NCBI GenBank assembly: GCA_027919835.1
Contig: JANVFP010000005.1
Span: 1,488,001 to 1,552,000 of the forward strand
Reading direction: 5' to 3'
DNA length: 64,000 bases
Source of the DNA: Lentinula raphanica
Taxonomy: Eukaryota > Basidiomycota > Agaricomycetes > Agaricales > Omphalotaceae
Below the pieces are notes generated by a model, which saw only the letters and a list, made by a program, of their open reading frames with translations, ran no database searches and had not been told where the DNA came from. Below, one piece after another: positions 32,693-55,941 of the stretch (position 1 is its first letter; the number at the start of each line of letters is the position of its first letter). Made by a program: the position numbers and the translations under genes.

Positions 32693-32696
32693 GAGG
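32693..32696. repeat. Left 4-bp duplication (GAGG) at the Ngaro insertion
   Basis: GAGG also occurs at the right border (55941-55944). The uninterrupted gene has it once. Confidence 0.6.
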
Positions 32697-36651: not shown

Positions 36652-36822
36652 TGTTATACATCATCTTAGTAATACTTTAACATATTCATCAATAGTTTTA
36701 GCTACCGCTCCTGCACCGCATCGTCATTATCCTCCCAATTCTAATCTTTCACCTTCTCAATTACGACCAAACTGCTCAGCGCGAGACCGGCTAACGCTGT
36801 GGAAACCCGTAAACGAGCGCGT
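36551..36822 (+). pseudogene. Ngaro tyrosine recombinase, N-terminal part (split by gypsy insertion)
   Basis: The frame starts at an ATG at 36551 within the RNase H end, in another frame, and reads LTLWKPVNERV just before the insertion. It continues in frame at 54138 with LRDSAGHELALP if the gypsy element and one GCGT are removed, giving about 465 residues. The cut removes this part from the catalytic domain, so this copy cannot make a full recombinase. Confidence 0.8.
36819..36822. repeat. Left target-site duplication GCGT of the gypsy element
   Basis: GCGT is repeated at 54134-54137 directly after the other LTR. A 4-bp duplication is slightly shorter than the 5 bp common for Ty3/gypsy elements. 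Confidence 0.85.
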
Positions 36823-38519
36823 TAACGAGGTATAAAGTCGGTTCTTAGTATAATGCCTTATGACAGGTCACTTAGCACGAACACAGGGTACGACTTCACG
36901 GATTCGTCAATCAATTGTATTTATAGCGAGGTGTGGGGCGTTGTCAGAGATTCCGCACTATCTTATATCTCAAGTCGAACGCAGTCTTGTAAGATCTTTT
37001 AGATCAGCAATACTGGTCAGCAGAACGAAGTGACACGGATATACCAGTCGTAAGATCTGGACTAAGGGGTTTGTTTTGAGTGGCTTCCACTCGGATAAGG
37101 GTTTTTAGGCTCGGAAAGCAACGGGGTACCAGACGTTATGGTAGACCAATCGATTCCGCTCCCGGGTGAAGCAGTACTGATCACTATTCTCAGTAAAACC
37201 TCGAAGATCACGCAGATCACCAATCACTACGTGTCAACTTGAACAGAGCCACCAAAACCCTGCACGTTCACTCGGCACAACCTGAGACCAAGTCCTCTGT
37301 ATCTCCGGAACGGAGTCTACCTTCAACTAGCAAGTGACAGACACCAAGTCAAACCACTCAAAAGTCGGGCTTATCGCGATGAAGTAACACACTTAATCTG
37401 CAAGGTCCGGTACGGCTTAGAAGCCTTTACTCCCACGTATGGATGAAAAGGATTACCAGTTCAGAGAGATCTGGGCGCGAAACTTATTTCATTTGTGCGG
37501 ATACAGGTCTTTAAGTACGCTACGAAAAGTCCAATACCCGTATTTGTCCTTGATCTAGTAGATCTAGCTATTTCTACGGACGGAGTCCGATAATATACAC
37601 TTAAATAGTAAAGTATGACTGAAACGATACAAACACGCAAGGAAATAGTAAAGAAAACCGATAAAAAGATGAAACTTGTCCGTATTTCGTCGTACTTTCG
37701 CCAGATCTAGAAGACCAAGCAAGTTCCGACCATGGTCTGTGCGGCCTCCACATGCTAGGGTGCCTAACTCGTCAGAGTGGCTCCTGCCTGTGTTGCTCAA
37801 GTGTTTCCGACGAATTTGCTTCCGCGGAATAGTAGTGGTCGCCCCAAATTAATGAATAGACTCGTAACAGTGGTTGATCTCGCGGATCAGGTAGGTCTCG
37901 TCCGTAGCTTTCGAACGGTATGCCTATAGCCTGGTGTTCTGGAGCGGACAACGAAGATAAATGCTTCAGAAGTGTTTTCCGTAGGTTTCCGCGCGTTTCC
38001 GTGAGTGCTGGTCAAAGCTGTACATAGCATACGCTATATCCCAGTTTAGAATTTGAACATATGCGTGTTTCCGCAGCGGGTTTCACCCGTACTGCCACGG
38101 AAATACTAGATCATCATGTTTCCGACGGTTTCCGCTACTTTGCGTAGGGTTTCCGTGTGGTAACTCGTCCGGATAGGCTCTCGTCGTGTCTGATCTGCTA
38201 GATCAAGTGAAATTTCCGTCATCACAGCCAAGTACCAAACTCAGTTGTGCCGATCCGGCAGATCTTGATACTAAGTCGATATTCCCTTGGTGTGCTCGTA
38301 CCAGTAGTCCGCATTCTTGAAGGATCCCCGACCAAGGGTGCGAGCAATAGCTCTAAGTGAATATTCATGGCTGATCCCGCCAAAGGATCTGTATCCTAGC
38401 TTATACTGATACAAGTTTGACTGCTAGTTCGGGCTCACTACAGTCCTTACTGATACTATGCAACGGTCTAAGTTGATCTTTTTGATCATTGCACGCCTGC
38501 GCGGAAAAACCGCGCAACA
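36823..38519 (-). repeat. 3' LTR of the gypsy element
   Basis: 1697 bp, same length and, as far as I can compare, same sequence as 52437-54133. In element orientation it starts TGTTGCGCGGTTTTTCCGCG (a hairpin) and ends CTCGTTA, not the usual CA. It contains about ten TTTCCG/CGGAAA hexamers (37804-38218) and several GATC palindromes. A 78-codon open frame inside it has no motif. Confidence 0.92.
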
Positions 38520-38534
38520 TCTCCCCCAAACTAA
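38520..38534 (-). promoter_or_regulatory. Polypurine tract (copy 1, next to the 3' LTR)
   Basis: On the minus strand TTAGTTTGGGGGAGA abuts the LTR start TGTTG. This is the expected place and composition for the plus-strand primer of an LTR retrotransposon. The same 14-bp core recurs at 42419 and 44717. Confidence 0.8.
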
Positions 38535-38976
38535 AGATCTGACCGTCCCCGGTCATCGCTATGGGTAGTGTAGGCTCGTATCCCTCGAATGGAGTGGTAC
38601 TGTAGCTGATCCGACAGATCAATCACTTTTTCCGCAACATTCTGACTTGATTATACCCGGTGATCTAACAGATCAAGTTGATCCGTTGATCTTGGCACCC
38701 GTACCGACAACTCCGCTGTCCTCTTGTCGACGACGCTAAGTCCTCGGTTTGTTATCGGCGCTTAATTTCCGAGTGTGATATCATGACGTAAATCACGCTT
38801 CTAATTCTATCACATCACATACACACTTCCTCGAAACAACTTCTTTTCAACATTTTACATACTATCCCTATGCCTAGGCCTGGGATTAGTAAGTGCTGAC
38901 AAAGGTTCAACGGACTTGGAAAATTTTCTAAGTTCGTTTCTTCCTTCTCCCCACCGTTGTCCACGCTCTCGACACG

Positions 38977-41722
38977 ATGGCCTCTTCCTCCAAAGCCTCC
39001 TCGTCTAAGAAGAAACTGGACGCGCCTCCTGCCAGGATAAAGAAGTCCTATCTATTCCCTGCCGACGCTCTCATTCCCGATTCCCCTACTGCTGCCTCGC
39101 CTTTATCTTCCTTCTCATTCAACAAGGATGTGAGACCAGCGGGCGGCACGTTGGCCACGGAGGGGGTCCTTTTCTTACCGGCTACTCTTTCAGAGAGCAA
39201 GCGGCTTCAAGACAGCTGGAAACGTTTTCCCAACTCCTTTTCCTCCGCCTTCGACCTTCCTCGTTACTCTTCGCCCGAGACCGCTGATCTCAGCACGACG
39301 CTTTTTCTTGATACCTCCAAGCAAATTCCTTCCACCTACTATCCCCGTTCCCTGGTGCGTCTCGTGGACTCCTTTTCGAAGGGTCCTGCGACACGCTCCG
39401 AGGGCTACTTGCTGTATCAGGCCATCGCATCGCTGCAGGTTGCCGTGTCACATATAGTGCACAAGCATGCCTCCAAGACTCGCAACCGTGAGCTGTTGTT
39501 GGAGATGTTGGAGTCGGATCGCATAACCGCCTGCCTGGTTCGTGTTTATTTTCTCTACTGACCAGCCCTAGTCCTTATCTCTTCCGCTTAGGATCATTAT
39601 CGATCTTTTTGGCATAGGGGTCAGGATTGCCCTCTCTTTGCTGCCCTCTTCATGGCCCTCTTCTGTGACTACTGCGAAAATCTCCTGTCGACGACCGAGT
39701 ATCGGGAGTACTTGTACGACGAAGACGAACGTACGGGCGGGGGTATGAGCAAGCGGAGCCGCCGTCAAATAAAGGTAACCCTTAATTGTTTTCGGCCCCA
39801 CTCTTCTTCTAACCTTCAGCCTTCATCTCTAGTCTTCCTTTCCCGATGTTTCTGTGACCCTTACTTCCCTCGCCATTCCCCTACCTTTGGATCCTTCCAC
39901 TAAGGAGGGGCAGCTTATCATCACCGTGTGTCACAGAGGACCGCCGGGTTCACAACTTATACATCCATTTTCCAAAGTATCACTCCTTCCTGACCCGTCA
40001 GGTTTTATCCGCGCGTTACCTAGAAGTCTGACCCCCGCTGATGATTCGGATTCCGACCATTCCGCTGGACGGACACAGCCCTCTCCTAAAAAGCGTCGAC
40101 CTCCTCCTGCTGCATATTCGGATATTGAACTTGACGATGATGATTACGAAGCCGACACTCCAGACCCTCACGCCGCTGAGGACTCCGAGCCTATTGAGCT
40201 GGAGATCCCTAGTACGTTCCTTCCGTCTATTCTCCTGCGCTTTTGGCTAACCTTTCACCAGAGATCCGCGAGAGCATTGCCAGAGCTGCCAAGGCTCGAG
40301 GGCGCGGCGGTACCAGCAAAACTGAGCTTTCCAGCACCCAACCTTTCGTACAAATTCCTGCCAAAAGGGAGCGCCAGCTCTCGCCCACCAACGACACCAT
40401 CGTAAGGTCATTCCTTGTCTTTCCCTGGCTTTTATTAACCTAACTCTCTCTCTTAGGCACCCGAGGGACCTCCAGCGAAAAAGAAGAAGTCTCAAAAAGT
40501 CCTGGGGAAATCGCGCGCTGTTTCGCCGTCCACTTCTGTAGTTCCGACGACACAACCTGCGGATTCTCAACGCCTTCGTATCCAAGAGGGTCCACCGGAT
40601 TATTTCGACGACGACGATACTCGCGACCCGGGTCTGGCCCTGATGCTTCCCAACCCCGACTTCACCATTACCACCGGTTTCGCCTCTGTCTTGTTACAAT
40701 CTTCCAATGTGCGACGCGGGGCTCGACCCCCACTTCTTCGACCTCCCAAGTTCCTGATCGCCGATGAGCTGAAGGAGCTAGGAGCATTTCTTTCCACTCC
40801 AGAGGTTACGTTCTCCCTTCCAGCTCTCAGTCGATACAATTATCTCACCTCTCGTCACCTACGAACGCTCAATTCTCGCACCTTGCCTGCGCATACCTCG
40901 ATGTATTCGACCTCTAACTGCCTGACCTGTTTGAGTCGCGGACTGGTCTGCGAGGGGGGTAGCAAATCCAATGGCTCTTGCAACAACTGCGAAGCCACGC
41001 ATCGTACGTGCCCTAGCTGCCTTGGCCTCGAAGATCACCAAGACCGTTTCCGCGCTATCCATCAGGCCGTGCAAGGCTTCCCCGTTGGATATGCCAACGC
41101 TGTTGACGCCTTTGAGAAAGCCTTGGATCGCTACATCCACCTCCAAACATCGTTCGAGGCTTTGTTCGCAGATGCCCGGCAGGATTTATCCGAGAAAATG
41201 CGAAACTTGCGTGCTCAGGGCTTTGATGCCAACGTCGTGCTTTCCCACTGGGCCGAGGAGAATCCCAACACCCCTGTTGATTTCGAAACCATTTCTTGGT
41301 TATCTACTCTCTTCGGTTGGCACACCTCTTGCAACGTATCGAAATTCCTCTCGAGCCCCTCGGATATTGAAAAACTTGAGGCCTTCCTTCGTCAACTCGA
41401 TCCTGAACCTCCGACTCCTGCCAATCCTCCTCCTCAAAACCAACCTTCTCCGTCCAAAACACCTGCGTCTTCAGGACCCGTTGTCGGCACGGTGCGTCAG
41501 CCAGTTCTGAAGTCCAAGCATCGCCCCGCTGCCGCCGTTCCTGTCAACTTCCCCTTGCGTCGGGCCTTTCAGACGCCTTCCACCTCTTCGGCGCCACCTC
41601 CCTCCGCCACCGCGGTAGATGAGGAATCGGAGAACGAAGAGGAACCAGCTCAAGCTACCCCGGGCCGAAGCCTTCTTGCAGAGTACGAGGGTGACGAAGA
41701 TGAAGACGCGGAAGCGGACTAG
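38977..41722 (+). CDS. Accessory protein 1 of the gypsy element, Zn2Cys6-like cysteine cluster
   Basis: Five exons (38977-39537, 39592-39774, 39833-40211, 40262-40401, 40457-41722) join in frame to 842 residues, antisense to gag-pol. A Lys/Ser-rich head (MASSSKASSSKKK) leads into a helical region (LLYQAIASLQVAVSHIVHKHASK) and acidic segments. A basic patch (PAKKKKSQK) looks like a nuclear-localisation signal. Then comes a cysteine cluster, CLTCLSRGLVC...CNNCEATHRTC, with spacing CX2CX6CX10CX2CX6C. That spacing matches the fungal Zn2Cys6 binuclear cluster, though it sits mid-protein and lacks the usual basic residues between the first cysteines. The tail is Pro/Ser-rich and acidic. All introns are short with good borders, so it is probably transcribed. 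Its function is not known; a nucleic-acid-binding role is inference. Confidence 0.75.
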
Positions 41723-42360
41723 ACATTTTTCTGCATATGGTACCATTCTTTGATAGCTTATCGTAGTGATCGGACTCGCACATCGTTTTTTCTGAGCCAG
41801 ACTACCACAGCTTTTTAGTTTTGTATCCCTGATTCTGCCTCTTTGGTCCTCAGTAGCTAGCACCAATCTTGAATGTCAATGCCCTGTTGGGCTTTCTCTT
41901 GTCCTTCCTTGGTCTGAGCTCTCCTTAAGACTTCCCAAGTTAATTTTCAAGATACTTGAGATATTCTTTAAGATGTCTTTAAGCTTTTAGGGCTCTTGCC
42001 CTTAACCAACACCTGAAGAGCACTTATAAGTAACTTCATTGCTACCATGTTGTTCTTCTAAGTGTTTGTTCTTTGACATTTCTAACGCTTTTGCCTTACT
42101 CTTGTCATTCCTGAAGCACAATTTTCAGTCTGATCAGCTAGATCATTTTGATCTGCTAGATCAAGCCCATCAATGTTGATTCTTCGGTTATCAAGTTGGT
42201 GGTTGCAGCCTCATATGGCATGTTAAATCCATTGGGCTATACAAATTGCAAGCTGCGTCGGTTTTAGATCTGAGTCTTTGCGTTGTACGCATGCTTGAGC
42301 TGTCAATGAACACAGGTCTTCCAGATCTCGTAAAATTTTCATGAAATTTTCCGAAATTTT

Positions 42361-42420
42361 CGAAAATTCTTGAAACACCGTGTGTCCCCTCGAAAATTCT
42401 TGAAACACCGTGTGTCCCCT
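42361..42420. repeat. Tandem 30-bp repeat upstream of accessory gene 2
   Basis: Two perfect 30-bp copies, 42361-42390 and 42391-42420, directly before the second polypurine-like copy and the TATA box of accessory gene 2. It could be promoter elements or a replication slip. Confidence 0.9.
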
Positions 42421-42432
42421 CCCCCAAACTAA
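42419..42432 (-). promoter_or_regulatory. Internal polypurine-tract copy 2
   Basis: CTCCCCCAAACTAA on the plus strand, identical to the core beside the 3' LTR. It lies between accessory genes 1 and 2. It may prime plus-strand synthesis internally or mark a cassette border. Confidence 0.65.
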
Positions 42433-42471
42433 AGCTCAGCAGTCCCCTGCTGACCCGAAGCTTCGGAAAAA

Positions 42472-42480
42472 GGTATAAAA
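42472..42480 (+). promoter_or_regulatory. TATA box of accessory gene 2
   Basis: GTATAAAAG about 45 bp before the ATG at 42524, supporting transcription of the accessory gene from its own plus-strand promoter inside the element. Confidence 0.7.
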
Positions 42481-42523
42481 GCCCTTGATCTAAGATATCC
42501 GACTCCCAACTCAACGAAAAAAA

Positions 42524-44542
42524 ATGGCTCCCAACTTCGAGTACCACAATCTCCCAATCTCGCTTGAAGCTGACTTTGCCAACTGGTGTGTCGACGCGGA
42601 GTACTGGGCTGCTCGTGTCAGCGATGACAAAAGCCTGGCCTGGCAAGGTGCCAAGTATAGTTCTAGCAAGGACAAGGTCGAGTTCACCACGTCCAACAAA
42701 ACGATCTTTTTGAACGATGTTCGTTGCGCGTACACTCATCTGGTACGGAAATCGTTTGATCTGCTAGATCCAGCAAAACTAACCAATTTCCGCTAGCTCA
42801 TTCGAGTGTCCCGCGACGCTGCGTGTATGAACAAGGAATATCTGCGGGCGTACGACAATCTCGCGGAGGAATTACTTTCCGCCGTGAATGCGTACCGCAC
42901 TATCCGTGACGAGATCCCTAAGCAGTTTCCCAAACTCTCCGAAGAGGGAGGGAAGAATGCCGAGATCGTCAGTTTCTACATTCAGCTGAACGACCTTCGT
43001 CGCAAAAAGCTCCGTGAGGACCAAGGCAGACAGGGTTCCCCTGCTGTCAGTACTCGCGGACCTAGTGTTCCACCTGCTGATCCTGAAGGACCGTCGAAAT
43101 CCAAGTCGAAAGGCAAGGAAGTTGCGACTGATCCAGCAGATCCAGCAGTTTCCGATGCTGATGCCAAGTTCATGGCAGAGGTGGTGCGTTTCCGCAACTA
43201 TTTTCGAAGATTCGTTTATTGACTAAAGGTTCCAGGATGCTGATCTTGCAGAACATGGGCCTTCTCCTCCAAAAGGTCCTCGAGGCGCACTTGCTAACCA
43301 TTTACGAGGCCGCGGACTTCCCATGCGAGGCCACTTCCGTAGTCCACGCGAGCAACGCTTTGAAATGCAAGAATCACTGCGTATGGGTGTGCCTGTTCCG
43401 CGGTATGACTCTCCGGTAAGTATGGTACCTTGATCTGTTAGATCAGCTGCTAACGGTTTATCCAGCCTCGTCGTGCTGAACTCGTCATCGATCATATCAT
43501 TGGTATGGACGAAAGGATCAAGCACGCCAAGGAGGAACGTGAAAAAGGCGAGAAGGGGAAGAAGACCGCGGAAGCGACTCCTCCTCCTCCTACCAGGCCC
43601 TCTACTCGTTCCAAAAGCAAGAAGAAATCCCTGACGACGAACCGGCTGCTCTGGCAGATCAGGATGTCTCTGTACGTGGCTGGTCTTGTAGATCAGACAA
43701 ATTTATGACTAACCCGTGCCATAGATGGCTGACGAAGTCGAGGATTCTACTCCTGCGAAGGCTAAGACCAAAACCAAAAAGCGCGACACCGTCGACGACG
43801 ACGATGACACTCCGAAGTCTTCCAAGACCAAGAGCAAGCGCAAACGTTCCGAACGCGATGTTGGTCCCGCGGACGGTAATGAGACTGCGCGGGCTCTGTC
43901 TCCTCAAGCACACAGTACTGTGCATGCTGTAACCGCGATCTCCCAGCCTCGTGCTGTTGGTGAAGATCTGATTAAGAGGGTGAAGTATTCGTTGGAACTC
44001 GCGGATACCAGTGAGTACCACTTCCATTTTCCGCTTTTTCGTACGGACTTCTACGGAAACTCGTTGATCTGCTAGATCACGCAGTTTCCGTTAGATATTT
44101 TCGCTTTGCATAGTCCGGAGTCCTTCCGCAAATCTTCGTGTTACTGATTATTGTTACAGGTACCCCCGACGATACAGATCATCGAGATCTCGTGCAACTT
44201 CTTCACAACATCGGACTCGCCCACAACCCGGAGGTTGAATCGTACACCGAAGAGCAGTACAATGCCTTCATCAACTTCCATACGACCCAACTCTTCGACT
44301 GTGTTATGAAAGCTCGTTTCTATGCACACCGTGGGGAGGCTAGTCAACGGATCATCGACAACGCCAGGGCTGCTCGGAAGGCTGGTGAACCTCTGCCCAA
44401 AGACGAGGACACCACCATGACTCCTGCCGACGTTGAAGAGGTGTACGTGTTTTCCGCACCACCGTCGCTGCCACCCGTAATTAAAATTGCGCAGACAGAC
44501 TTAGAGGATCCCGCAATGCAAGGGCCACGCTCCGCACCTTAA
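42524..44542 (+). CDS. Accessory protein 2 of the gypsy element, with a probable 1-nt frameshift
   Basis: Six exons: 42524-42742, 42797-43183, 43236-43415, 43466-43671, 43725-44010 and 44160-44542. The N-terminus (NLPISLEADFANWCVDAEYW) is followed by a helical region (YLRAYDNLAEELLSAVNAYRTI) and a long Lys/Ser/Pro/Asp-rich middle. The C-terminal block is LVQLLHNIGLAHNPEVESYT...FDCVMKARFYAHRG. Exon 4 has 206 nt, one short of a multiple of three. Its first part is in frame with exon 3 (DERIKHAKEEREKG), but its end is coding-like in another frame (DDEPAALADQDVS) that joins exon 5 (MADEVEDSTP). One base has probably been lost near 43625 in this copy, or an unrecognised splice exists. I recognise no known family. 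Confidence 0.6.
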
Positions 44543-44716
44543 GCAAGTGCTTATCGAGGCTGACCATCTAGATCATCGTTCATTCTGCCCTGTCGCCTAT
44601 TTTTATACCTGTACTTTTGTCAAGTCAAGTATTATTGGTAGTTTTTGAGGTAATCCAGTGGCAACTAAATCCCTCGAGTGATTATTGAGATAGAATAAGT
44701 TGAAGCATCGCGGAAG

Positions 44717-44730
44717 CTCCCCCAAACTAA
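44717..44730 (-). promoter_or_regulatory. Internal polypurine-tract copy 3, just past the pol stop
   Basis: CTCCCCCAAACTAA on the plus strand, 23 bp beyond the pol stop codon in element orientation. In a standard gypsy element the polypurine tract and LTR follow pol directly, so this may be the ancestral 3' end (inference). Confidence 0.65.
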
Positions 44731-44753
44731 GTGATCTGTTAGATCAGGCATGT

Positions 44754-47700
44754 TTAGAAAGACTTCCGTCGACCACTTCGTCGCGGACCATTCGGTAGAG
44801 ACGGATTCGCCTCTTCCTCTTGATCTTCGGACTCAGCAGCCTTCAGATCCTCCGGACCAAGCGGTTCAACAGGCGGAACCAATGGTGGTTCAACGGAATT
44901 TGACTGATCATCACCGGAAATGTTTATTCGAGGGACAGTACTGAAAATAAAGTCCTCCACTTCCTCAGGTTCGTCTTCCTCATCCTGTACCATAGATTCT
45001 AACTGCTCAGGCGACAGATCTATCAGATCATGTATGTTTTCCGGCAGTTCGATCGGTTCGTAACGAGCATGATGCGGGATCACACGGAAAGCACCCACTT
45101 TGTCTTTAAGTACAGTGCCATCCATTTCCGCAATGATATATGCGCCTCCTCGGGTCCTCCTGATGACAACCATAGGTCCACGATATCGAAGGTACATTTT
45201 CCGATCCAAATTCTTCTCGATAGCGGTGTTCCGTACTTGTACTAAGGTACCCGGCTTGAAATCCCAGTCCTTAATGGTGTACTTGTACTTTTCCTCGAAA
45301 ACTCTCGCTTCTCGACGTTTGTTCTCATCGATCCGTGCTTTCATGTTCTCGACGAAGGAACGATGTTTGGAAAGAGCCTGAGCCCGGAAGCCCAGTAACT
45401 CTTCCCGTGATAGTATTCGATTTGGTGGATTGACCAAATATGTAGATTCAACAATATCGAAAGGTAGCAGAGGTTCCGTACCGGTAGCTACGAAGTATGG
45501 TGAACAGCCTAAACCTCTCCGTGCAGTAATACGATCAGCCCAAAGTATCGGTTTCAAGAAGTAGTACCATTTTGACAGATCTCCCGCACACGCTTTCGCA
45601 AGTGCTTGCCTCAGATCAAAGTGAGCACGTTCAATCTTTCCGTTAGCTTGTGAATTGTAAGGCGATATCTGTATTCCGCGGATCCCGTATTTCTGTTCGA
45701 GCCATCGCAACATAAGCTTCATCTGTGGTGCATTGTCCGAGACCACGATTTCCGGACATCCCCATCTACATATGATGTCTTCAAAGAACCATTCCGCGAG
45801 TGATCTCGCGTTTTCAATTCTCAGTGCCCTAGCTTCCGACCAACTCGACAACGAATCCCGTCCGTGGACGATATATCTACAACCATTACTGGCCGGAGAC
45901 ATAACCATCGTATCGATATGTATCTTTTGGAACAAGGATGGCGTGAAGGTCACCGTTGGAGGGATCCGTACCAAAGACCTAAGTCGATCTTGGCAGGCTT
46001 GACATGTTTTCACATACCACTCCACGTCTTTCTCCAGATCAGGCCACCAAAACCTCTTTTCTAAGAAGTCTTTCGTAGCATATGTACCCTTGTGTCCTAA
46101 GGCATCATGAGCACTGTGCAATAGATACATTCGTTTTTCCGGTTCAACCACTAAACGCAGTTGATCTGTGGATGGTTTCCGATGGAACAGTCGACCTTCC
46201 GAGTCTATTGAAAAGGACAGTGTTTTCCGGTCCATTTCCGCTCGTTGTCTCTTGTCCAACTTCGCGAATTGCTCAGCATTCGGGTCCTTAAGCCATGCTC
46301 GGATTTCCGGTAACTGCTGATCTAGACGATTTCCGCCATCCGATCTATGGGATATCGGATATTTGTGATCAGGTCCCCACGTAGCATTGTCGGGGATCGC
46401 AGTATACTGCAGAAACTGAGAGGTCAAAGGCATTCCCGAGGCCTCTAAACGTTCTTTGAGGAATGCATGCTGGATCTCTTCCTCCCGGGCCACTTGAAGA
46501 TCTTCCGCAAACTCATCTTCAATGGTCTCGCAAAAGTATCCTGTCCGGGGATCTATATGATCTTTGAATGATTCAAAGGGCAATGGATCATCCGCTTCGT
46601 CCGCTTTGAAGAACCTAACGTTGTTGGAGTCATCTGCATCTTCTGCTAGATCCTCTTCGGTTTCCCGACGAGGGGTAGTCCAACCTCCCGGAGGTCTTCG
46701 AGACAAACCATCAGGTCCAAAGGTTGCTCCTTTGACATGAATCAAATCGAAATGGAATTTACGGATATCTTCGATCCAACGGTTGATCGTAGCGTTTGGA
46801 CCACTACTCGGATTTTCAAGCATTCCTTGAATATAGCTAGCATCCGTTTCCACCGTGAGTTTCCGACATCCATAAAGAAGATAGTGTGTTGCTCGGAGAG
46901 CAACCTTCAGACCATAGAGTTCACGCTTAGATTGAGAAAACCGAGCTTCACGTTCATTATACGGGATGGATCCGAAGTAATTATAGTAAATCTTCGTCTG
47001 ATCTACAGGATCAATCTGATAGATGTAAAATCCCGTACCCATGTAAGAACTATCCACTGCTAAGTGTGTTTCCCAGTCATATACTATGACTCTTAAGGCT
47101 GGTGCATTACGGACTCCGTCTTTCAACAGGTCCATGGCTATGACATGCTCATCCTTCCACTCAAACGGAATATTCGCCGTTAATTTGGTCAAAGGTGAGG
47201 CTTTCTTAGCGTAATTGTGAATGAACATCCGGAGCTGACCAACAGTTCCCAGAAAGGCTCGGACCTGTGTCTTGGAAGAGCACGGAGGCCAGGTTAGAAC
47301 CGTAGTTGCGATTCTATCTTCCGGTTTCTGTCCTTCGTACGTGCAACGGTGTCCAACCACTATAGTTTCAGCGCAACACAGGAATGCTTTAGGTCCCGAG
47401 AAGGTTCCGCCGCAATACCGCATCCGCTGAATAATTCGGTTCACATTTTGGAGATGCTCCCAGACAAATCGTCTGATCAAAGGATTTTCAGGGATAGTTT
47501 CGTATCCGCCACCCGGTAATTCATAACGAGTCCCGGGGCCTCTGATAGGAACATCATCGACGTAAGGAATAGTATATTCCGGAATTTCATCTCGCATCAT
47601 GTAAGTTACATCGTCATGGAATATCGGAACAGAGTTCGTCCAACCCATAGGCAACTTTACGAGACGGTGTGGTCCGTACGGAGTTTGGAATGTCGTCAGA

Positions 47701-48938
47701 TCTCGCGAACTAACATCGAGTGGTCGTTCATCATAACCCACATAGATATCCAACAAACCACCACAGGCACGACCCGCAAAATGACGAGCAATATCCGCGG
47801 TAGCAGGAGGAATCCCGGAGTGTTGAATGGTCACCTTGTTCAAGGGTTCCAAACTATGTACTAAACGAAGACTCGTTCCATCCTTCTTGACCACACAAAA
47901 CCATTTTGAACGATAACTCGAGCAAGATGGTTCATAAACTCCAGCATCAATCTTATCCTTGATGATCTTACAAACCCTTTCGAAGATTCCGGGAGGAATT
48001 GGAATATTTCGTTCGACCCAGGGCTCATGAGGTATGACCGGAATTTTCACGGGAGGAAAGAAGTCCTCTCTGAATGTTCCGCCCTCGGAAGCTTCCCAAG
48101 CAAAACCCATTTCCTGCAACTTCATCATATGATGAACTAGCTTCATTTCCTCGTCCGTAAGGAAACCTTCCGCATGGTTTTTCTCGATGATCTCTTTCCG
48201 TTCTTGCGTATACCGAATACCCGGCGTGAATTCCGGAGGATGAGTTGGTAGATCTGGTAGATCAGCCAAAGGATCCCCGTAAATGTGTCTCCGCACACGG
48301 AATTCTTCCGGTAAATCAGCCTTGACAGGGCGAACTTTCACCGCTACAGGCTTATATTTTCGAGAACCGAAGACCGAAACTGGCTGATCTGGCAAAAACA
48401 CATCATTATATGCGCATATATGCTGGTCAATCGTCTCGTTCTTGAGTTCCCAGAGCTTAACACGATGCATCGCAGCCTCCAAATCTTGGGTCATTGAAGA
48501 CAATTCCGCATCTTTTGCTTGATCTACTTGATCTGTTAGATCTGTTAGATCTTCCGTGTTATCATATGGACGAGTTAACCCGTGTAAGTCTTTCCACCTA
48601 ACGTCCTTTGTCATAGACTGGTAAAAGGTCTCCTTCAGGTCCTCAACGGTCGGATCAGCTCTAAATCCTTCCTTCCATGGGTTGATCACACGATTTTGTT
48701 GATGATCTACACCTTTGTTCAGGTATAGTGATATGGTTTCGGCAATTCCGGGGTGCGACTTCTCGATCGTTGGCAGACAGCATTGTACATACACGTCCGC
48801 TAATTCTTCATCGGAGAAGGTACCTCGTTTCACCTGATTCGACTCTATAACCACTTCCTCCGCTTGAGCATCCCAGTACCCACTAAGAGCGATTTCTACC
48901 TCTCCCTGGTCGCTACTCAGATCCCAGAGGTTATTCAA
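44754..48938 (-). CDS. pol: Gypsy Pol: reverse transcriptase, RNase H, integrase
   Basis: 1394 codons with no ATG at the start; entry is probably by -1 frameshift from the protease frame. RT: SKWFCVVKKDGTSLRLVHSL, GLLDIYVGYDERPLD, PMGWTNSVPIFHDDV and the active-site IPYVDDVPIRG. RNase H: LAVDSSYMGTGFYIYQ, SQSKRELYGLKVALRATHYL and VETDASYIQGML. Integrase: zinc-binding HSAHDALGHKGTYATKDFL...CQACQDR, then the DDE triad as Asp in KIHIDTMVMSP, Asp in IVVSDNAPQM and Glu in NGKIERAHFDL. The C-terminal part (KMYLRYRGPMVVIRRTRGGAYII) resembles the usual integrase tail; no chromodomain is visible. The order RT-RH-IN is that of Ty3/gypsy. The frame is intact. Confidence 0.93.
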   Translation of the reverse strand: MNNLWDLSSDQGEVEIALSGYWDAQAEEVVIESNQVKRGTFSDEELADVYVQCCLPTIEKSHPGIAETISLYLNKGVDHQQNRVINPWKEGFRADPTVEDLKETFYQSMTKDVRWKDLHGLTRPYDNTEDLTDLTDQVDQAKDAELSSMTQDLEAAMHRVKLWELKNETIDQHICAYNDVFLPDQPVSVFGSRKYKPVAVKVRPVKADLPEEFRVRRHIYGDPLADLPDLPTHPPEFTPGIRYTQERKEIIEKNHAEGFLTDEEMKLVHHMMKLQEMGFAWEASEGGTFREDFFPPVKIPVIPHEPWVERNIPIPPGIFERVCKIIKDKIDAGVYEPSCSSYRSKWFCVVKKDGTSLRLVHSLEPLNKVTIQHSGIPPATADIARHFAGRACGGLLDIYVGYDERPLDVSSRDLTTFQTPYGPHRLVKLPMGWTNSVPIFHDDVTYMMRDEIPEYTIPYVDDVPIRGPGTRYELPGGGYETIPENPLIRRFVWEHLQNVNRIIQRMRYCGGTFSGPKAFLCCAETIVVGHRCTYEGQKPEDRIATTVLTWPPCSSKTQVRAFLGTVGQLRMFIHNYAKKASPLTKLTANIPFEWKDEHVIAMDLLKDGVRNAPALRVIVYDWETHLAVDSSYMGTGFYIYQIDPVDQTKIYYNYFGSIPYNEREARFSQSKRELYGLKVALRATHYLLYGCRKLTVETDASYIQGMLENPSSGPNATINRWIEDIRKFHFDLIHVKGATFGPDGLSRRPPGGWTTPRRETEEDLAEDADDSNNVRFFKADEADDPLPFESFKDHIDPRTGYFCETIEDEFAEDLQVAREEEIQHAFLKERLEASGMPLTSQFLQYTAIPDNATWGPDHKYPISHRSDGGNRLDQQLPEIRAWLKDPNAEQFAKLDKRQRAEMDRKTLSFSIDSEGRLFHRKPSTDQLRLVVEPEKRMYLLHSAHDALGHKGTYATKDFLEKRFWWPDLEKDVEWYVKTCQACQDRLRSLVRIPPTVTFTPSLFQKIHIDTMVMSPASNGCRYIVHGRDSLSSWSEARALRIENARSLAEWFFEDIICRWGCPEIVVSDNAPQMKLMLRWLEQKYGIRGIQISPYNSQANGKIERAHFDLRQALAKACAGDLSKWYYFLKPILWADRITARRGLGCSPYFVATGTEPLLPFDIVESTYLVNPPNRILSREELLGFRAQALSKHRSFVENMKARIDENKRREARVFEEKYKYTIKDWDFKPGTLVQVRNTAIEKNLDRKMYLRYRGPMVVIRRTRGGAYIIAEMDGTVLKDKVGAFRVIPHHARYEPIELPENIHDLIDLSPEQLESMVQDEEDEPEEVEDFIFSTVPRINISGDDQSNSVEPPLVPPVEPLGPEDLKAAESEDQEEEANPSLPNGPRRSGRRKSF

Positions 48939-48944
48939 AAATTT
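48935..48944 (-). promoter_or_regulatory. Candidate -1 ribosomal frameshift site
   Basis: On the minus strand the end of the protease frame reads CCA AAT TTT TGA, so A AAT TTT is in phase as X XXY YYZ. A one-base slip back enters the Pol frame directly (TTG AAT AAC...). Pol has no ATG at this point, which supports programmed frameshifting. Confidence 0.75.
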
Positions 48945-50413
48945 GGTTGCGGAACTTTCTCTGCCTCCTCGTGAGTGTCTTCCCGTCTTGATTCGGGTTG
49001 CAACTGTTGAGTTGGCTGTGATACTTTTCGTTCCACCACTTTTCTTGGTGCTCTCGGTCCATGTCCTTTCGGATATGTACCCATGGTATACCGTTTTCCA
49101 GTATTCGGATCCGTAATCGTAAGTTCCTGATCACCCGATCCAAATGTCTGAATGACACTCTCAGTTAACACATCAAACGGCCGTCCCAACAGTATTTCGA
49201 AGGGAGCCTTTTCTTGAACATGTAACTGCAAATACACTGTGACTGGTCCAAATCGAAAGGGCACATTTCGGGCTAAACCTTTGGTCCGCGCGATCCCGCC
49301 ATGTACATTTTGCATCTGTATGGTGATTCCGGGATCCCAACCTAGACCTAAGCCTAACGCCACGCTCATATCGATTGCGACTATCTGTGATCCTGAGTCC
49401 AGGAGGTTCTCTACTTCGAGATCTTCCCGATCATTCACAACAGGCCACACTGCACGGAGACCATTGCCGATGGTAGCAACTATGGTCATATCTCGTCGTT
49501 CATCATTCTCGTCGACATCACTTAAGAATGATTCTACTGGATCTACTTGAACAAACGCTCCTGCTTTCATCCCATCCCGATCCTCAGATAATCTTTCAAA
49601 AGCCCAAGCTTCGGGTAATGCTAGATCATCCACGGAAATGACTTGTTCGTCTTCGGAATCATCATTTGAAAGTGTTTCCGTAGCTAGATCTTGTTGATCA
49701 GCCAAGTTCAGCAGCATTTTCTTTCGATCTTGCGGAAGTACTCGCTTGTTCCGTATCTTTCGTGCTACGATCTGCCTGATCTTCCCCGAAAGCTGTAAAG
49801 CTTCGGAAGAAGTCAATTCAATCGTCTTTCGCACTATCCGGTCAGCAAGCTCTTCCTCTAGACCAGGCGTGAACAGTTCATTCTGCAGCCTGTATTTTGG
49901 TGCCTTCGAAGATCCCTTAGATTCAGGCATCTTTTCCGGCTTTGGTTGATTTCGAGGGTGAGGTGTAACTTCTCTGGGCTGAACATCATCAAATGGTCTT
50001 CTCGGATTTTCCGTACGAGGAGGTGACGGATCGCGGAATCGTACTTGCTTCGATTTCCGTTGATCTGTCTGATCAGGCTCACGTTCCGAACCTAACGCAC
50101 TCTCATCCGTTAAATCGTCAATGGTCACTGACTGTATCCTTTCCAAAGCAGCTTCCCTCAATGATTGAGAAGAATCGGGGTCTGATCCAGCAGATCGGTC
50201 ATGATTAGGCGTAGAATTGTCCGGATTGGACTTCGGTTTTTCGAATGTTTTGTTTTTACTAGGGTTATTTCGATCTATGGGTATATGCACCCCGTCAAAG
50301 CGTTTATTCTTGACGGCAGGTATTGCTTTTGGTGAGTTAGGCTTTGGGGCACCCTCATGAGTTGTTGCCTGTTGCTGAGACCGTGTCCTTGGCCCAGAGG
50401 TCAACTCAATCAT
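48935..50413 (-). CDS. Gypsy aspartic protease protein
   Basis: 492 residues from an ATG at 50413. The N-terminal half is disordered and basic/acidic (RSQQQATTHEG, KQVRFRDPSPPRTENPRR). A retropepsin domain lies near residues 330-430: VENLLDSGSQIVAIDMSVAL carries the catalytic DSGS, and FEILLGRPFDVL is the C-terminal part of the fold. The stop (48935-48937) lies inside the slippery region leading to Pol. The ATG is 8 nt beyond the gag stop in another frame, so reinitiation or a shift could link Gag to it. Confidence 0.88.
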   Translation of the reverse strand: MIELTSGPRTRSQQQATTHEGAPKPNSPKAIPAVKNKRFDGVHIPIDRNNPSKNKTFEKPKSNPDNSTPNHDRSAGSDPDSSQSLREAALERIQSVTIDDLTDESALGSEREPDQTDQRKSKQVRFRDPSPPRTENPRRPFDDVQPREVTPHPRNQPKPEKMPESKGSSKAPKYRLQNELFTPGLEEELADRIVRKTIELTSSEALQLSGKIRQIVARKIRNKRVLPQDRKKMLLNLADQQDLATETLSNDDSEDEQVISVDDLALPEAWAFERLSEDRDGMKAGAFVQVDPVESFLSDVDENDERRDMTIVATIGNGLRAVWPVVNDREDLEVENLLDSGSQIVAIDMSVALGLGLGWDPGITIQMQNVHGGIARTKGLARNVPFRFGPVTVYLQLHVQEKAPFEILLGRPFDVLTESVIQTFGSGDQELTITDPNTGKRYTMGTYPKGHGPRAPRKVVERKVSQPTQQLQPESRREDTHEEAEKVPQPNF

Positions 50414-50421
50414 TGGATTCC

Positions 50422-51993
50422 TCAGTTTCCCGACTCGTTCGTGTACACCGTAGCCACACCATTGCTAGATCTCCCTTGCACCATCTCCGCCAGATTGGCA
50501 ATGACCATCCAAGCTGGGGATCCGGCCAACTGTTCCGAGTAATCCTCATTGTCCGGGATCATCTCGTTCATCATCGTCGAAACCTCGGGCCATCCTTTGG
50601 CCTGACCATACTTCATGATCTTTTGGTATCTACTCTCACTTCCGAAGTTGTTCGGTAGCGGAGACCCATCCTTCAACTTAAGACGCTTTGGATCTTGCGG
50701 ATCACGCATAATCCAACCTTTCCCTAAGAGTTCCAAGAACATTGGACAACTTTGCATCATGTGGTTCGGTTCCCGACAAAGGAAACACAACATCTCAGAC
50801 CTTTGACCTTGTGCATTATTCGGATTCGTGTTAATGATTCCGCGGGGAGGCCCACTGTTTCCGGGATTACCACTACCAGAAGCGACAGTATGGGGCTGCA
50901 CCCGTTGCGCAGGTTGTACATTTCCGGTCTTGATGTTAGCCAGCATTTGAGCCAACGTCTCAAGTTCCTCTTTGTAGGTAGCCTTAAGTGCTCCCAAATC
51001 TTTGACCAACACACTGTACTGGTCCCTATTCGCAGCTAGTGCTCTTTCCGTTTCCTCGGAAGCCTCACGTTTCACTTCAACGGGCTTAGCTGGAGACCGG
51101 AAGAAATGCGAGAGATCCGGTACTTCTTCTTTGATCACCGGAGGACCACCAATCGGAACGTATACGCCTCCTCTCGAGTGGGTTTCCGCATTGAAGACCA
51201 CACCATCCCGACTTGTAACCGTCCGGTACAACGATTCCAAGGGTGGGTGCCTTGCTACGGCCTCTGCTGCTTCCTTGTACTCTACAAACAGATATGGATC
51301 ATCGACCCGACGTTTCTCTACGCGGAAAGCAGGTACCTGCTGTTGAACCTTACGATTCACAGCTTTCCGTAACTCGTCATCGAATGCTGACAGGAAAAGG
51401 GACACCAATTCCGTGTTTCCTATCGCCGGAGGCGGTTTCAACAGTTTATTGGCTTCTACCTCCATCAACAAGCAATATCCGAGCAGCCTATCTCCGTCCC
51501 GGACACCCAAAGGAGCATAGTTCTGTACGATCTGCAAGAGCGTATTCTTCGAACCCATTGGTCTCCCTAGAGATGCCGGGAATCTTTCACACAAGGAACG
51601 CAGAAAACAGTCCGCGTCTTCCCTTCCCTCCTGCGCGCCGGGAAGATGCTCGAGAGCCTGCTTGGTCTGAAGGGTCATCCAAGAAAAGATCTTTTGCATC
51701 TTCACCTTCTCGGAGGTAACTTCCGTAGCCTGGAACGTGTTCAAACAGAACCTCACCCACTCGGGGATCATGCTCGGATTGGCCAAGTCCAGGATCATAG
51801 CAGTTTTGTGTGTAAGCGGAAACTTGGTATTGTTATACTCTGCTTGTTCCGCAGGAGTCAGTTCAGGAGGACCAAGCATCCTTATGATGTCTAGTTGATC
51901 CTCCGGTCGTTTTTGTTGGGCAGCCGGGTTTGCTGGTGCGTTAGCATTCGCTCCCGCGGCTCCCTGATCATTTCCGTTATGTACTTCGGACAT
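50422..51993 (-). CDS. gag: Gypsy Gag
   Basis: 523 residues from the first in-frame ATG (51993). The open frame reaches back to about 52345 without another ATG, so a non-AUG or spliced start is possible. The capsid-like region includes IPEWVRFCLNTFQATEVTSE, QTKQALEHLPG and DGDRLLGYCLLMEVEANKLL. A C-terminal zinc knuckle CFLCREPNHMMQSC (CX2CX4HX4C) binds RNA. It sits just downstream of the 5' LTR and primer-binding site in element orientation. It forms the virus-like particle of the retrotransposon. Confidence 0.88.
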   Translation of the reverse strand: MSEVHNGNDQGAAGANANAPANPAAQQKRPEDQLDIIRMLGPPELTPAEQAEYNNTKFPLTHKTAMILDLANPSMIPEWVRFCLNTFQATEVTSEKVKMQKIFSWMTLQTKQALEHLPGAQEGREDADCFLRSLCERFPASLGRPMGSKNTLLQIVQNYAPLGVRDGDRLLGYCLLMEVEANKLLKPPPAIGNTELVSLFLSAFDDELRKAVNRKVQQQVPAFRVEKRRVDDPYLFVEYKEAAEAVARHPPLESLYRTVTSRDGVVFNAETHSRGGVYVPIGGPPVIKEEVPDLSHFFRSPAKPVEVKREASEETERALAANRDQYSVLVKDLGALKATYKEELETLAQMLANIKTGNVQPAQRVQPHTVASGSGNPGNSGPPRGIINTNPNNAQGQRSEMLCFLCREPNHMMQSCPMFLELLGKGWIMRDPQDPKRLKLKDGSPLPNNFGSESRYQKIMKYGQAKGWPEVSTMMNEMIPDNEDYSEQLAGSPAWMVIANLAEMVQGRSSNGVATVYTNESGN

Positions 51994-52416
51994 ATTGTTG
52001 GGTAAAAACAGTCGTATCAAATCAAATGGTTCGGGTTGTAATGTAGGATCTGAACTAGATTGCGGATCTGGTCCAACAGTAGCTGCCTTTTGTCTACCGT
52101 TTCCTGGCACTACGTTAGATTTCTTCGTTACTGGTTGTTCCGAAGATGGTCTAGCAGCTCTCCCGTTATCTGGATTGCTTGTACTCGCTCTTCCGAGGTT
52201 TCTCGGATCGTAAACAGGTACAGAGGGTTTCTTTGTTGCGCGCTTTCGCTGATCTGAAGCTTGTATCGCTGGATCAAAGAAATCTGCTGAGCCCGCGTTC
52301 TTCGAAGTCCGAGTAGCTCTTGGAGCTATTTTTAATGATCAAATAAATTCGATCAAAGGCAGTAGTTTTGAGAAATCAAGAAGATCTCTCGAGTTCGACC
52401 AAAATATAGATTCCAC

Positions 52417-52434
52417 CCCTCGCGGTGGGCTCCA
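52417..52434 (-). promoter_or_regulatory. Primer-binding site of the gypsy element
   Basis: Two bases inside the 5' LTR the minus strand reads TGGAGCCCACCGCGAGGG, which begins with TGG as needed to pair with a tRNA 3' CCA end. The complementary strand (CCCTCGCGGTGGGCTCCA) looks like a tRNA acceptor/T-arm 3' end. The tRNA identity was not determined. Confidence 0.75.
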
Positions 52435-52436
52435 GA

Positions 52437-54133
52437 TAACGAGGTATAAAGTCGGTTCTTAGTATAATGCCTTATGACAGGTCACTTAGCACGAACACAG
52501 GGTACGACTTCACGGATTCGTCAATCAATTGTATTTATAGCGAGGTGTGGGGCGTTGTCAGAGATTCCGCACTATCTTATATCTCAAGTCGAACGCAGTC
52601 TTGTAAGATCTTTTAGATCAGCAATACTGGTCAGCAGAACGAAGTGACACGGATATACCAGTCGTAAGATCTGGACTAAGGGGTTTGTTTTGAGTGGCTT
52701 CCACTCGGATAAGGGTTTTTAGGCTCGGAAAGCAACGGGGTACCAGACGTTATGGTAGACCAATCGATTCCGCTCCCGGGTGAAGCAGTACTGATCACTA
52801 TTCTCAGTAAAACCTCGAAGATCACGCAGATCACCAATCACTACGTGTCAACTTGAACAGAGCCACCAAAACCCTGCACGTTCACTCGGCACAACCTGAG
52901 ACCAAGTCCTCTGTATCTCCGGAACGGAGTCTACCTTCAACTAGCAAGTGACAGACACCAAGTCAAACCACTCAAAAGTCGGGCTTATCGCGATGAAGTA
53001 ACACACTTAATCTGCAAGGTCCGGTACGGCTTAGAAGCCTTTACTCCCACGTATGGATGAAAAGGATTACCAGTTCAGAGAGATCTGGGCGCGAAACTTA
53101 TTTCATTTGTGCGGATACAGGTCTTTAAGTACGCTACGAAAAGTCCAATACCCGTATTTGTCCTTGATCTAGTAGATCTAGCTATTTCTACGGACGGAGT
53201 CCGATAATATACACTTAAATAGTAAAGTATGACTGAAACGATACAAACACGCAAGGAAATAGTAAAGAAAACCGATAAAAAGATGAAACTTGTCCGTATT
53301 TCGTCGTACTTTCGCCAGATCTAGAAGACCAAGCAAGTTCCGACCATGGTCTGTGCGGCCTCCACATGCTAGGGTGCCTAACTCGTCAGAGTGGCTCCTG
53401 CCTGTGTTGCTCAAGTGTTTCCGACGAATTTGCTTCCGCGGAATAGTAGTGGTCGCCCCAAATTAATGAATAGACTCGTAACAGTGGTTGATCTCGCGGA
53501 TCAGGTAGGTCTCGTCCGTAGCTTTCGAACGGTATGCCTATAGCCTGGTGTTCTGGAGCGGACAACGAAGATAAATGCTTCAGAAGTGTTTTCCGTAGGT
53601 TTCCGCGCGTTTCCGTGAGTGCTGGTCAAAGCTGTACATAGCATACGCTATATCCCAGTTTAGAATTTGAACATATGCGTGTTTCCGCAGCGGGTTTCAC
53701 CCGTACTGCCACGGAAATACTAGATCATCATGTTTCCGACGGTTTCCGCTACTTTGCGTAGGGTTTCCGTGTGGTAACTCGTCCGGATAGGCTCTCGTCG
53801 TGTCTGATCTGCTAGATCAAGTGAAATTTCCGTCATCACAGCCAAGTACCAAACTCAGTTGTGCCGATCCGGCAGATCTTGATACTAAGTCGATATTCCC
53901 TTGGTGTGCTCGTACCAGTAGTCCGCATTCTTGAAGGATCCCCGACCAAGGGTGCGAGCAATAGCTCTAAGTGAATATTCATGGCTGATCCCGCCAAAGG
54001 ATCTGTATCCTAGCTTATACTGATACAAGTTTGACTGCTAGTTCGGGCTCACTACAGTCCTTACTGATACTATGCAACGGTCTAAGTTGATCTTTTTGAT
54101 CATTGCACGCCTGCGCGGAAAAACCGCGCAACA
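52437..54133 (-). repeat. 5' LTR of the gypsy element
   Basis: 1697 bp, matching 36823-38519. It should carry the promoter for the gag-pol transcript. It also carries the TTTCCG-rich block (about 53417-53832) and a TGATCTGCTAGATCA palindrome at 53805. Confidence 0.92.
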
Positions 54134-54137
54134 GCGT
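54134..54137. repeat. Right target-site duplication GCGT of the gypsy element
   Basis: Matches 36819-36822. Confidence 0.85.
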
Positions 54138-55263: not shown

Positions 55264-55449
55264 CCGCGTTCTCAGAGAATACTCAGTTGGGACCCGAGGG
55301 CATCCTGCCCTCCTACCCAATCGCACCATAGCATTGACATGAAACAAATATATATATATTATATACCGTCGTGTAAATCACTCAGACAAACCTCTCGTTC
55401 ACGCTACTAGCTAGTCTCATCGCTCCTTATGCATCACTGAAGTTCAAAG
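55252..55449 (+). repeat. Ngaro split direct repeat B1
   Basis: 198 bp, matching 55744-55941. It starts TATCGCAGCTGACCGCG and ends GAAGTTCAAAG; A2 follows at once, giving the B1-A2 junction expected in split-repeat elements. It contains an AT-rich AAATATATATATATTATATA stretch. Confidence 0.88.
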
Positions 55450-55580
55450 ATGCCGGTTTGATGACACAGTCAGCAAACTATAGTCTTCGAACTGGACATG
55501 TGATGCGGTGCTGTCGTTCTCTTCCAGTACCGCATCACCAACTCCTGAGACTTATTCTTAGGGCAGCTCAAAACTTTCGG
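55449..55580 (+). repeat. Ngaro split direct repeat A2
   Basis: 132 bp, copy of A1 at the left end of the element. Confidence 0.88.
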
Positions 55581-55743: not shown

Positions 55744-55941
55744 TATCGCAGCTGACCGCGTTCTCAGAGAATACTCAGTTGGGACCCGAGGGCATCCTGC
55801 CCTCCTACCCAATCGCACCATAGCATTGACATGAAACAAATATATATATATTATATACCGTCGTGTAAATCACTCAGACAAACCTCTCGTTCACGCTACT
55901 AGCTAGTCTCATCGCTCCTTATGCATCACTGAAGTTCAAAG
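55744..55941 (+). repeat. Ngaro split direct repeat B2, right end of the element
   Basis: 198 bp, copy of B1, followed directly by the host serine protease coding sequence. Confidence 0.88.

Follow-up and report, generated by a model that had tools for sequence, protein, structure and literature searches.

In the genome of Lentinula raphanica, a relative of shiitake, a multi-copy family of Ty3/gypsy long terminal repeat (LTR) retrotransposons carries two spliced genes antisense to gag-pol. One of them, gene 1, is a cassette with many alleles, and which allele a copy has does not depend on the remainder of its sequence. The copy described here occupies positions 36823-54133 (17,311 bp, minus strand) of a stretch of 64,000 nucleotides, hereafter the window (GenBank assembly GCA_027919835.1, contig JANVFP010000005.1, positions 1,488,001 to 1,552,000), and genome-wide counts refer to the 49-Mb L. 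raphanica assembly that contains it. At least 11 versions of gene 1, saturated at synonymous sites, are found on otherwise very similar copies in this one genome. Purifying selection acts on the second gene, gene 2, which is conserved, and a gapped palindrome, GATC-N5-GATC, is dispersed over the element. Judged from sequence, these features may together form a regulatory module encoded by the retrotransposon itself.

Two spliced antisense genes in a gypsy family

The element is a recent copy of its family, with two LTRs of 1,697 bp that show 0 differences. Its assignment to the Ty3/gypsy LTR retrotransposons follows from the paired LTRs, the target duplication and the domain order. Read on the minus strand, the 5' LTR is followed by the primer binding site, gag, protease, reverse transcriptase (RT)-RNase H-integrase and polypurine tract 1, and then by gene 2 (antisense), tract 2, gene 1 (antisense), tract 3 and the 3' LTR. 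The protease open reading frame (ORF) precedes RNase H (residues 658-792 of the pol ORF) and the integrase zinc domain (996-1049), which gives the order protease, RT, RNase H, integrase; RVT_1 at residues 447-530 (E 0.1) fell below the Pfam cut-off, as did zf-CCHC for the gag knuckle (E 0.2), whose C-x2-C-x4-H-x4-C pattern was recognised by eye. LTR matches number at least 40 in the genome, the element's own two counted, and every listed one is at 98% or 100%. In addition, the complement of the primer binding site, CCCTCGCGGTGGGCT, occurs 48 + 57 times in the genome and its reversed control 0 times; no primer tRNA was identified for this site in the three loci scanned. Pieces of the element also stand at the very ends of contigs (C1:102, C2:109, C21:232, C30:173 and C51:1), and the primer-binding-site word is found near contig ends (C6:963, C10:962, C11:562 and C57:563); these pieces may mark assembly breaks or subtelomeric copies.

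Both accessory genes are multi-exon, lie between pol and the 3' LTR, and have GT-AG introns throughout. Gene 1 (38977-41722) has five exons and four introns, and its predicted product of 842 amino acids is 100% identical to the annotated L. raphanica protein C8R42DRAFT_717908. Gene 2 (42524-44542) has six exons and five introns. An earlier note, made from the letters of the window, had described a 17.3-kb gypsy element holding two multi-exon antisense genes with clean short introns, one of them with its own TATA box. The element and the gene pair are as described, and the TATA box is that of gene 2. The note did not mention the multiple alleles of gene 1, its cysteine spacing, the dispersed palindromes or the threefold polypurine tract. 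The splice sites are clean as well; the frame of gene 2 is not, being broken in exon 4 of the window's copy by a one-base length difference found in two of 20 aligned copies (the window's and L024). Gene 2 is therefore clean only in other copies: among the 18 fully covered, which exclude the partly covered L006 and L008, it is intact (552 or 553 residues) in 12 and broken in six, the window's among them. Divergence of gene 2 is threefold higher in introns than in exons (6.2% vs 2.1%), and the ratio of non-synonymous to synonymous differences per site (pN/pS) is 0.11 over nine intact copies of equal length. Just upstream, at 42360-42421, two identical 30-bp units occur, and the length varies here between copies.

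The earlier note had also argued that introns antisense to the genomic RNA survive its reverse transcription, and the copies bear this out: introns 1-4 of gene 2 are kept in 20/20 aligned copies and intron 5 in 19/20, L006 not being covered there. For gene 1, predicted intron positions are similar in the window (amino acids 187, 248, 374 and 421), in the divergent version carried by the copy C20 (183, 244, then 432, the later junctions of the model being doubtful) and in a copy of a sister family (169, 230, 360 and 406, plus 624).

The gene pair is not peculiar to this copy. A pol search gave 38 matches, of which nine belong to the sister family (family 2) and 29 are pieces merged into 23 family-1 loci, out of 32 scored candidates. 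Immediately beside 17 of the 23 loci there is a gene 2 match; for the other six it lies at 1.4 kb (one), at 3.9 and 17 kb (two), or is not nearby among the matches listed (three). Gene 2 sequence is present at no fewer than 39 loci, the window's included (40 candidates scored), and gene 1 (exon 5 and others) has 124 genomic matches, a count that takes exon pieces apart and may include host genes outside elements. The sister family, whose nine pol matches are 75-78% (about 76%) identical to family 1, has both genes in the same order, place and orientation (loci L045 and L061). L061 was considered as a third family, which was rejected; it belongs to the sister family. Between the families, gene 1 exon 5 is 32-39% and gene 2 25-45% identical; both accessory genes are far more diverged than pol. 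The usual gene set of the family is thus gag-pol plus two spliced antisense genes, and because the accessory region is common to the family it lies far beyond chance. Eight of the nine sister pol matches contain one or more TGA, one or more TAG and two or more TAA. For the most part, then, the sister family may be inactive, or it may be read differently, and gene 1 versions are diverse there nonetheless.

Gene 1 versions on near-identical elements

Compared in steps of 200 bp, the window's element and C20 are 96-100% identical in the 3' LTR, the gene 1 promoter, gene 2 and the adjoining pol end, and 97-100% identical in the remaining gag-pol and the 5' LTR, whereas through gene 1 identity falls to 40-63%. 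The two LTRs of C20 themselves have 3 differences in 1,700. The same holds against L006-L008: synonymous differences per site (pS) reach 0.66-0.67 in gene 1 and 0.07-0.09 in gene 2 (exons 1-4 in part), and the gene 1 introns are 46-48% different. Among themselves, L006-L008 differ in gene 1 by a pS of 0.02-0.05. Non-synonymous differences between the window and these copies are 0.09-0.10 in gene 1, a pN/pS of 0.14-0.15, and positive selection on amino acids was not seen in this comparison.

When 18 of the 20 supplied loci were compared over residues 1-330 of exon 5 (L031 and L032 were left out for too little coverage), their gene 1 sequences fell into 13 groups, with pS of at most 0.11 within groups and 0.63-0.85, that is saturated, between them; amino acid identity between groups is 44-87%. 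All 16 sequences examined for it, in 11 groups, adjoin family-1 sequence; C18 and C25:486106 make up the 18. Family 1 gives no support for continuous hypermutation of gene 1, because this divergence is discrete, with pS either up to 0.11 or from 0.63 and none between. In a comparison of 10 elements, gene 1 pS showed no correlation with gene 2 distance (r -0.12, P 0.72). Furthermore, the N-terminal, central and C-terminal parts of the protein are shuffled among versions. A database search with residues 490-745 gave 45 relatives, every one of them named L. raphanica and with several locus prefixes among them; it would miss relatives sharing few 5-residue words.

The borders of the divergent block can be placed approximately. 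On the left, compared with four copies (L006, L007, L008 and C20), identity stays at 96-100% up to about 38,900 and falls within about 100 bp around the ATG (38977). On the right, 90-98% is regained between 42,100 and 42,200, close to three overlapping palindromes, with a length-variable stretch at 42350-42400 as the exception. This border is abrupt, near 42,150, against C20 and between C17 and C20; against L006-L008 it is more gradual, and a single 50-bp bin at 41,500 within the block reaches 94-96%. Identity between C17 and C20 is 65-78% over the stretch of about 38,750 to 42,250, and then 94-100%.

The sister family repeats the pattern, with a pol pS of 0.02-0.07 (six copies) and a gene 1 pS of up to 0.77 (eight copies), here including an intermediate class at 0.26-0.31. 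Two sister copies, for which about 200 bp left of gene 1 are covered, are 98% and 81% identical in the last two 100-bp bins before the ATG, 35-67% inside the gene, and 93-100% from about 490 bp past its end to the end of the stretch. Gene 1 versions are thus independent of the rest of the element and have therefore been exchanged between elements.

The gene 1 protein carries a six-cysteine motif, C-x2-C-x6-C-x9-C-x2-C-x6-C, present in 29 of 33 aligned proteins and in none of 6,600 shuffles. Its spacing is that of fungal Zn(II)2Cys6 clusters, but it lacks the basic residues usual there. The Pfam zinc cluster was found in none of the 33 gene 1 proteins at E up to 1. These 33 whole proteins gave no convincing Pfam family (PHF12_MRG_bd appeared in four members, best E 0.024), nor did three gene 2 proteins; a scan of seven ORF pieces of both genes, which covered neither exons 2 and 4 of gene 1 nor exons 3 and 4 of gene 2, reached a best E of 0.02. 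A PDB sequence search with gene 1 gave no match. By eye, both proteins have strongly basic stretches, and the basic and acidic stretches of gene 1 suggest a nuclear rather than a surface protein.

Palindromes, polypurine tracts and surrounding DNA

GATC-N5-GATC occurs 39 times in the window (2.2 expected), every one inside the element, with seven sites per LTR, 12 in the accessory region and 13 in gag-pol; it is absent from the 46,689 bp of flanks and from gene 1. With one LTR counted, the 32 sites (0.4 expected) make it the outstanding gapped palindrome of the element. Its score of 33 compares with best scores of 6.1 in the flanks, 4.5 in sister pieces and 8.0 in other gypsy pieces (L001-L004), and with shuffle maxima of 4.5-5.5. 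Genome-wide, TGATCTNNNAGATCA has 347 sites and its reversed control one; 50 distinct sites were listed, 35 of them inside a matched element stretch, 42 within 12 kb of one and eight elsewhere. In the gene 2 introns of 18 copies, 4/36 motif positions are variable vs 103/322 other positions (P 0.011).

The sister family has a different site. GATC-N5-GATC is found once in L045 and twice in L061, and because gapped-palindrome scores are low in the sister pieces, the site of this family was found by word counts. The sister family is rich in YAGATCTR, AGATCT occurring 22 times in 6.5 kb of L045 and 30 times in 9.5 kb of L061 (5.1 expected), with one and two of these, respectively, inside gene 1. Beside polypurine tract 1, TGATCTGTTAGATCA stands in family 1 and ATAGATCTGTT at the corresponding place in family 2. 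It looks as if the half-site has been kept and the spacing changed between the families, as might be expected of a dimeric DNA-binding protein co-evolving with its sites.

The 13-mer TCCCCCAAACTAA, purine-rich on the strand of the genomic RNA, occurs three times in the window (0.04 expected if one mismatch is allowed), and the three tracts bracket both accessory genes. It has 113 + 105 sites (218) in the genome and 0 for the reversed control; among the first 100 listed, 60 make 20 triplets, in both families, spaced by 3.8-4.1 and 2.25-2.3 kb. A hairpin is predicted before each tract in the genomic RNA, significant for tract 2 only (z -4.89) and weak for tract 3 (z -1.24) and tract 1 (z -0.96). 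We infer that plus-strand synthesis is also initiated at the internal tracts.

The features of the element and its surroundings are collected in Table 1. The gypsy element sits inside another retroelement, whose direct repeats, in two pairs of 132 and 199 bp (100% identical within each pair), are split in the arrangement A1 ... B1-A2-B2, a layout that recalls Ngaro/DIRS elements. Its RT-like ORF was recognised by eye, with no Pfam match, and Phage_integrase in its tyrosine-recombinase-like ORF fell below the cut-off (E 0.1). Elsewhere in the flank there is a minisatellite with a period of about 15 bp (8445-8883), and a local duplication with segments 81-85% identical (10641-16623).

Table 1. 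Positions in the window of features of the gypsy element and of the retroelement around it
Feature	Position	Strand	Remarks
Target site duplication GCGT, 4 bp	36819-36822 (left), 54134-54137 (right)	.	seen in flanks
3' LTR	36823-38519	-	100% identical to 52437-54133
Polypurine tract 3	38522-38534	-	adjoining 3' LTR
Exchangeable gene 1 block, ~3.2 kb	38930-42150	+	borders approximate
Gene 1 exon 1	38977-39537	+	
Gene 1 exon 2	39592-39774	+	
Gene 1 exon 3	39833-40211	+	
Gene 1 exon 4	40262-40401	+	
Gene 1 exon 5	40457-41722	+	
Gene 1 cysteine motif	40919-41011	+	amino acids 576-606
Three overlapping GATC-N5-GATC palindromes	42132-42162	.	near right border of gene 1 block
Polypurine tract 2	42420-42432	-	between gene 2 and gene 1; kept in sister family
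TATA box of gene 2	42474-42481	+	TATAAAAG, ~43 bp upstream of ATG
Gene 2 exon 1	42524-42742	+	
Gene 2 exon 2	42797-43183	+	
Gene 2 exon 3	43236-43415	+	
Gene 2 exon 4	43466-43671	+	frame broken in window's copy
Gene 2 exon 5	43725-44010	+	
Gene 2 exon 6	44160-44542	+	coding part 45% identical in sister family
Polypurine tract 1	44718-44730	-	pol side of gene 2; kept in sister family
RT-RNase H-integrase ORF, 1458 amino acids	44754-49130	-	RT_RNaseH_2, RT_RNaseH and Integrase_H2C2 above cut-off; frame open
Aspartic protease ORF	48935-50464	-	Asp_protease_2 E 2.2e-5, above cut-off; frame open
gag ORF, 638 amino acids, CCHC knuckle	50422-52338	-	open frame
Primer binding site	52417-52434	-	2 nt past 5' LTR; by position and TGG start
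5' LTR	52437-54133	-	100% identical to 3' LTR
Direct repeats of surrounding retroelement	32696-32827, 55252-55450, 55449-55580, 55744-55942		
RT-like and tyrosine-recombinase-like ORFs of surrounding retroelement	34282-36651 and 54100-55263		

What the antisense genes may do

Why would a retrotransposon keep many versions of one gene on otherwise similar copies? The reading that we favour, tentatively and at somewhat less than an even chance, is that the element encodes a nuclear regulatory module, made up of binding sites dispersed over it and of a specificity gene that can be exchanged. The antisense genes would be transcribed from their own promoters, and the genomic RNA, being the opposite strand, would carry the accessory introns as plain sequence; because these introns stay unspliced in it, new copies would inherit both genes complete. 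The products would be nuclear proteins acting on the element, and one of them would bind the dispersed palindromes as a dimer and so switch the element on or prevent its silencing, as VANC does for the VANDAL elements of Arabidopsis. Gene 2 is most likely this reader because, as with the motif, it stays constant inside a family and differs from one family to the other. Gene 1, with its zinc-cluster-like motif, would be the specificity part, and its distinct versions may be kept since elements or host factors recognise like versions, in the manner of the repressors of heteroimmune phages. Internal plus-strand starts at the polypurine tracts could free the gene 1 segment for exchange between the two genomes of a particle. 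A more specific proposal, possible but rather doubtful, is a self-recognition locus: multi-allelic, cassette-exchanged gene 1 would sort near-identical elements of one genome into many compatibility groups, comparable to mating-type or immunity loci, and gene 2 and the palindromes would co-evolve to mark and control the element's own copies.

Several observations weigh against the regulatory module. Neither protein has a convincing Pfam family, and gene 1 has no PDB sequence match; DNA binding is therefore argued from the cysteine spacing, the basic stretches and the palindrome motif. Conservation of the palindrome is significant in introns only; over all non-coding sites it is marginal (P 0.047), and exon palindromes are not more conserved than other positions (2/24 variable vs 194/1,634). 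The AGATCT of the sister family is common in family 1 too (23 in 15.6 kb). The palindrome does not change along with the version of gene 1, and hence gene 1 is not obviously its reader. With one LTR and the internal region counted, 13 of 32 palindromes fall within gag-pol, whereas the targets of VANC are mainly non-coding. The right border of the gene 1 block against L006-L008 is gradual when gaps are ignored (89-90% from 41,770), and old versions of gene 1 could have survived even if nothing selected for diversity.

One alternative, unlikely in our view yet a serious one, is that the palindromes are RNA signals, acting as hairpins or kissing palindromes in dimerisation or packaging of the genomic RNA, or sites of host factors, rather than targets of an element protein. 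TGATCT-NNN-AGATCA can be folded as a 6-bp hairpin, and one copy forms a hairpin beside polypurine tract 1; since the palindromes are strand-symmetric, strand cannot decide. However, the YAGATCTR of the sister family has no loop and can form no hairpin of its own, the 39 sites extend over LTR, introns, untranslated regions and pol, which to our knowledge exceeds known packaging signals, and family-specific spacing is not easily explained by a host factor.

The diversity of gene 1 might also be a neutral relic of old lineages, homogenised elsewhere by a recent burst and gene conversion that halted at the divergent gene 1. We consider this improbable, although a drop of identity where homology is lost and a partly gradual right border are what conversion tracts would leave, and the copies are very recent by their LTR differences (0/1,697 in the window, 3/1,700 in C20). 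Against it, gene 1 alone in the stretches compared behaves so, and does so in two families; 13 groups among 18 sequences is a high number to result from a burst; versions are met again with other locus prefixes, which we take as other strains; and there is purifying selection within gene 1.

Less probable still is an arms race in which the host recognises the gene 1 protein and rare versions escape, as in retroviral env subgroups. The position between pol and the 3' LTR, the many ancient versions and the modules shuffled within the gene would fit, but the strong purifying selection (pN/pS 0.14-0.15) is not amino-acid-driven change, and the basic and acidic stretches seen by eye point to a nuclear, not a surface, protein. 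Finally, the idea that a single copy captured host genes once, suggested by the host-like introns of both genes and the TATA box of gene 2, is ruled out by family-wide presence, by the sister family and by selection on gene 2. The earlier note would have given up its proposal of an element-encoded system had other copies lacked the region and the genes matched ordinary host loci; the proposal held, with gene 2 adjoining 17 of 23 pol loci and both genes present in the sister family.

The putative module resembles several known systems in part. Heteroimmune lambdoid phages have otherwise similar genomes with exchangeable immunity genes; here too an exchangeable gene sits on similar genomes, but the carrier is a eukaryotic retroelement and no operator was seen travelling with gene 1. 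Retroviral env subgroups have a variable gene between pol and the 3' LTR, and HBZ of human T-lymphotropic virus (HTLV) is a spliced antisense regulatory gene, whereas gene 1 has no envelope features noted and the family is Ty3/gypsy. Ty1 and human immunodeficiency virus have a central polypurine tract, an extra plus-strand start inside the element. Internal copies of the 3' tract exist here as well, but the tracts number three, stand where the accessory genes end and not in pol, and are putative sites of initiation.

The closest known counterparts are accessory ORFs that lie antisense in the stretch from pol to the 3' LTR (aORF-3R), known from maize Grande (gene23), rice RIRE2, Silene Retand, PvRetro13 and the Botrytis element Boty (PMC7264820). 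The product of Grande gene23 is nuclear and the gene has a promoter of its own, an antisense promoter of HTLV is mentioned, and no function is known for the antisense genes that LTR retrotransposons carry (PMC7264820). The L. raphanica genes share the place, the antisense orientation, the presence in most copies (17 of 23 pol loci adjoin gene 2) and the lack of a known function, and are under selection (pN/pS 0.11 for gene 2, 0.14-0.15 for gene 1). They differ in being two genes with four and five introns, one of them multi-allelic and exchanged, in the palindromes and in the three polypurine tracts; the review describes no multi-intron gene pair, exchanged multi-allelic gene, dispersed palindromes or three polypurine tracts (PMC7264820). 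The earlier note's "possibly little-described" is therefore a better description than "new" would be, since similar genes exist in plant elements and in the fungal Boty (PMC7264820).

The short motif to which VANC proteins bind is enriched in the elements that encode them, chiefly within tandem repeats of non-coding sequence, and their targets change between families (PMC5735166, PMC10398659). The likeness lies in a motif enriched in the family's own copies with another form in a related family, and in fast-changing accessory genes; the difference is that our element is a retrotransposon, not a DNA transposon, and that its motif is palindromic, dispersed and also in coding sequence. The VANC domains DUF1985 and DUF287 had no Pfam match in the 33 gene 1 or three gene 2 proteins. 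The element thus works like aORF-3R and VANC in part and is a member of aORF-3R only; VANC anti-silencing and phage heteroimmunity would be analogies of working, not of membership. By titles and abstracts, no prior description of this element family or of a multi-allelic retrotransposon gene was found in the open-access library searched.

An antisense gene with a strong sequence signature, repeated in a second family and accompanied by family-specific DNA sites, makes the function of such genes directly testable. The findings suggest that a retrotransposon can possess a system of allelic recognition, and this would matter for competition between element copies, for their escape from silencing and for their recombination.

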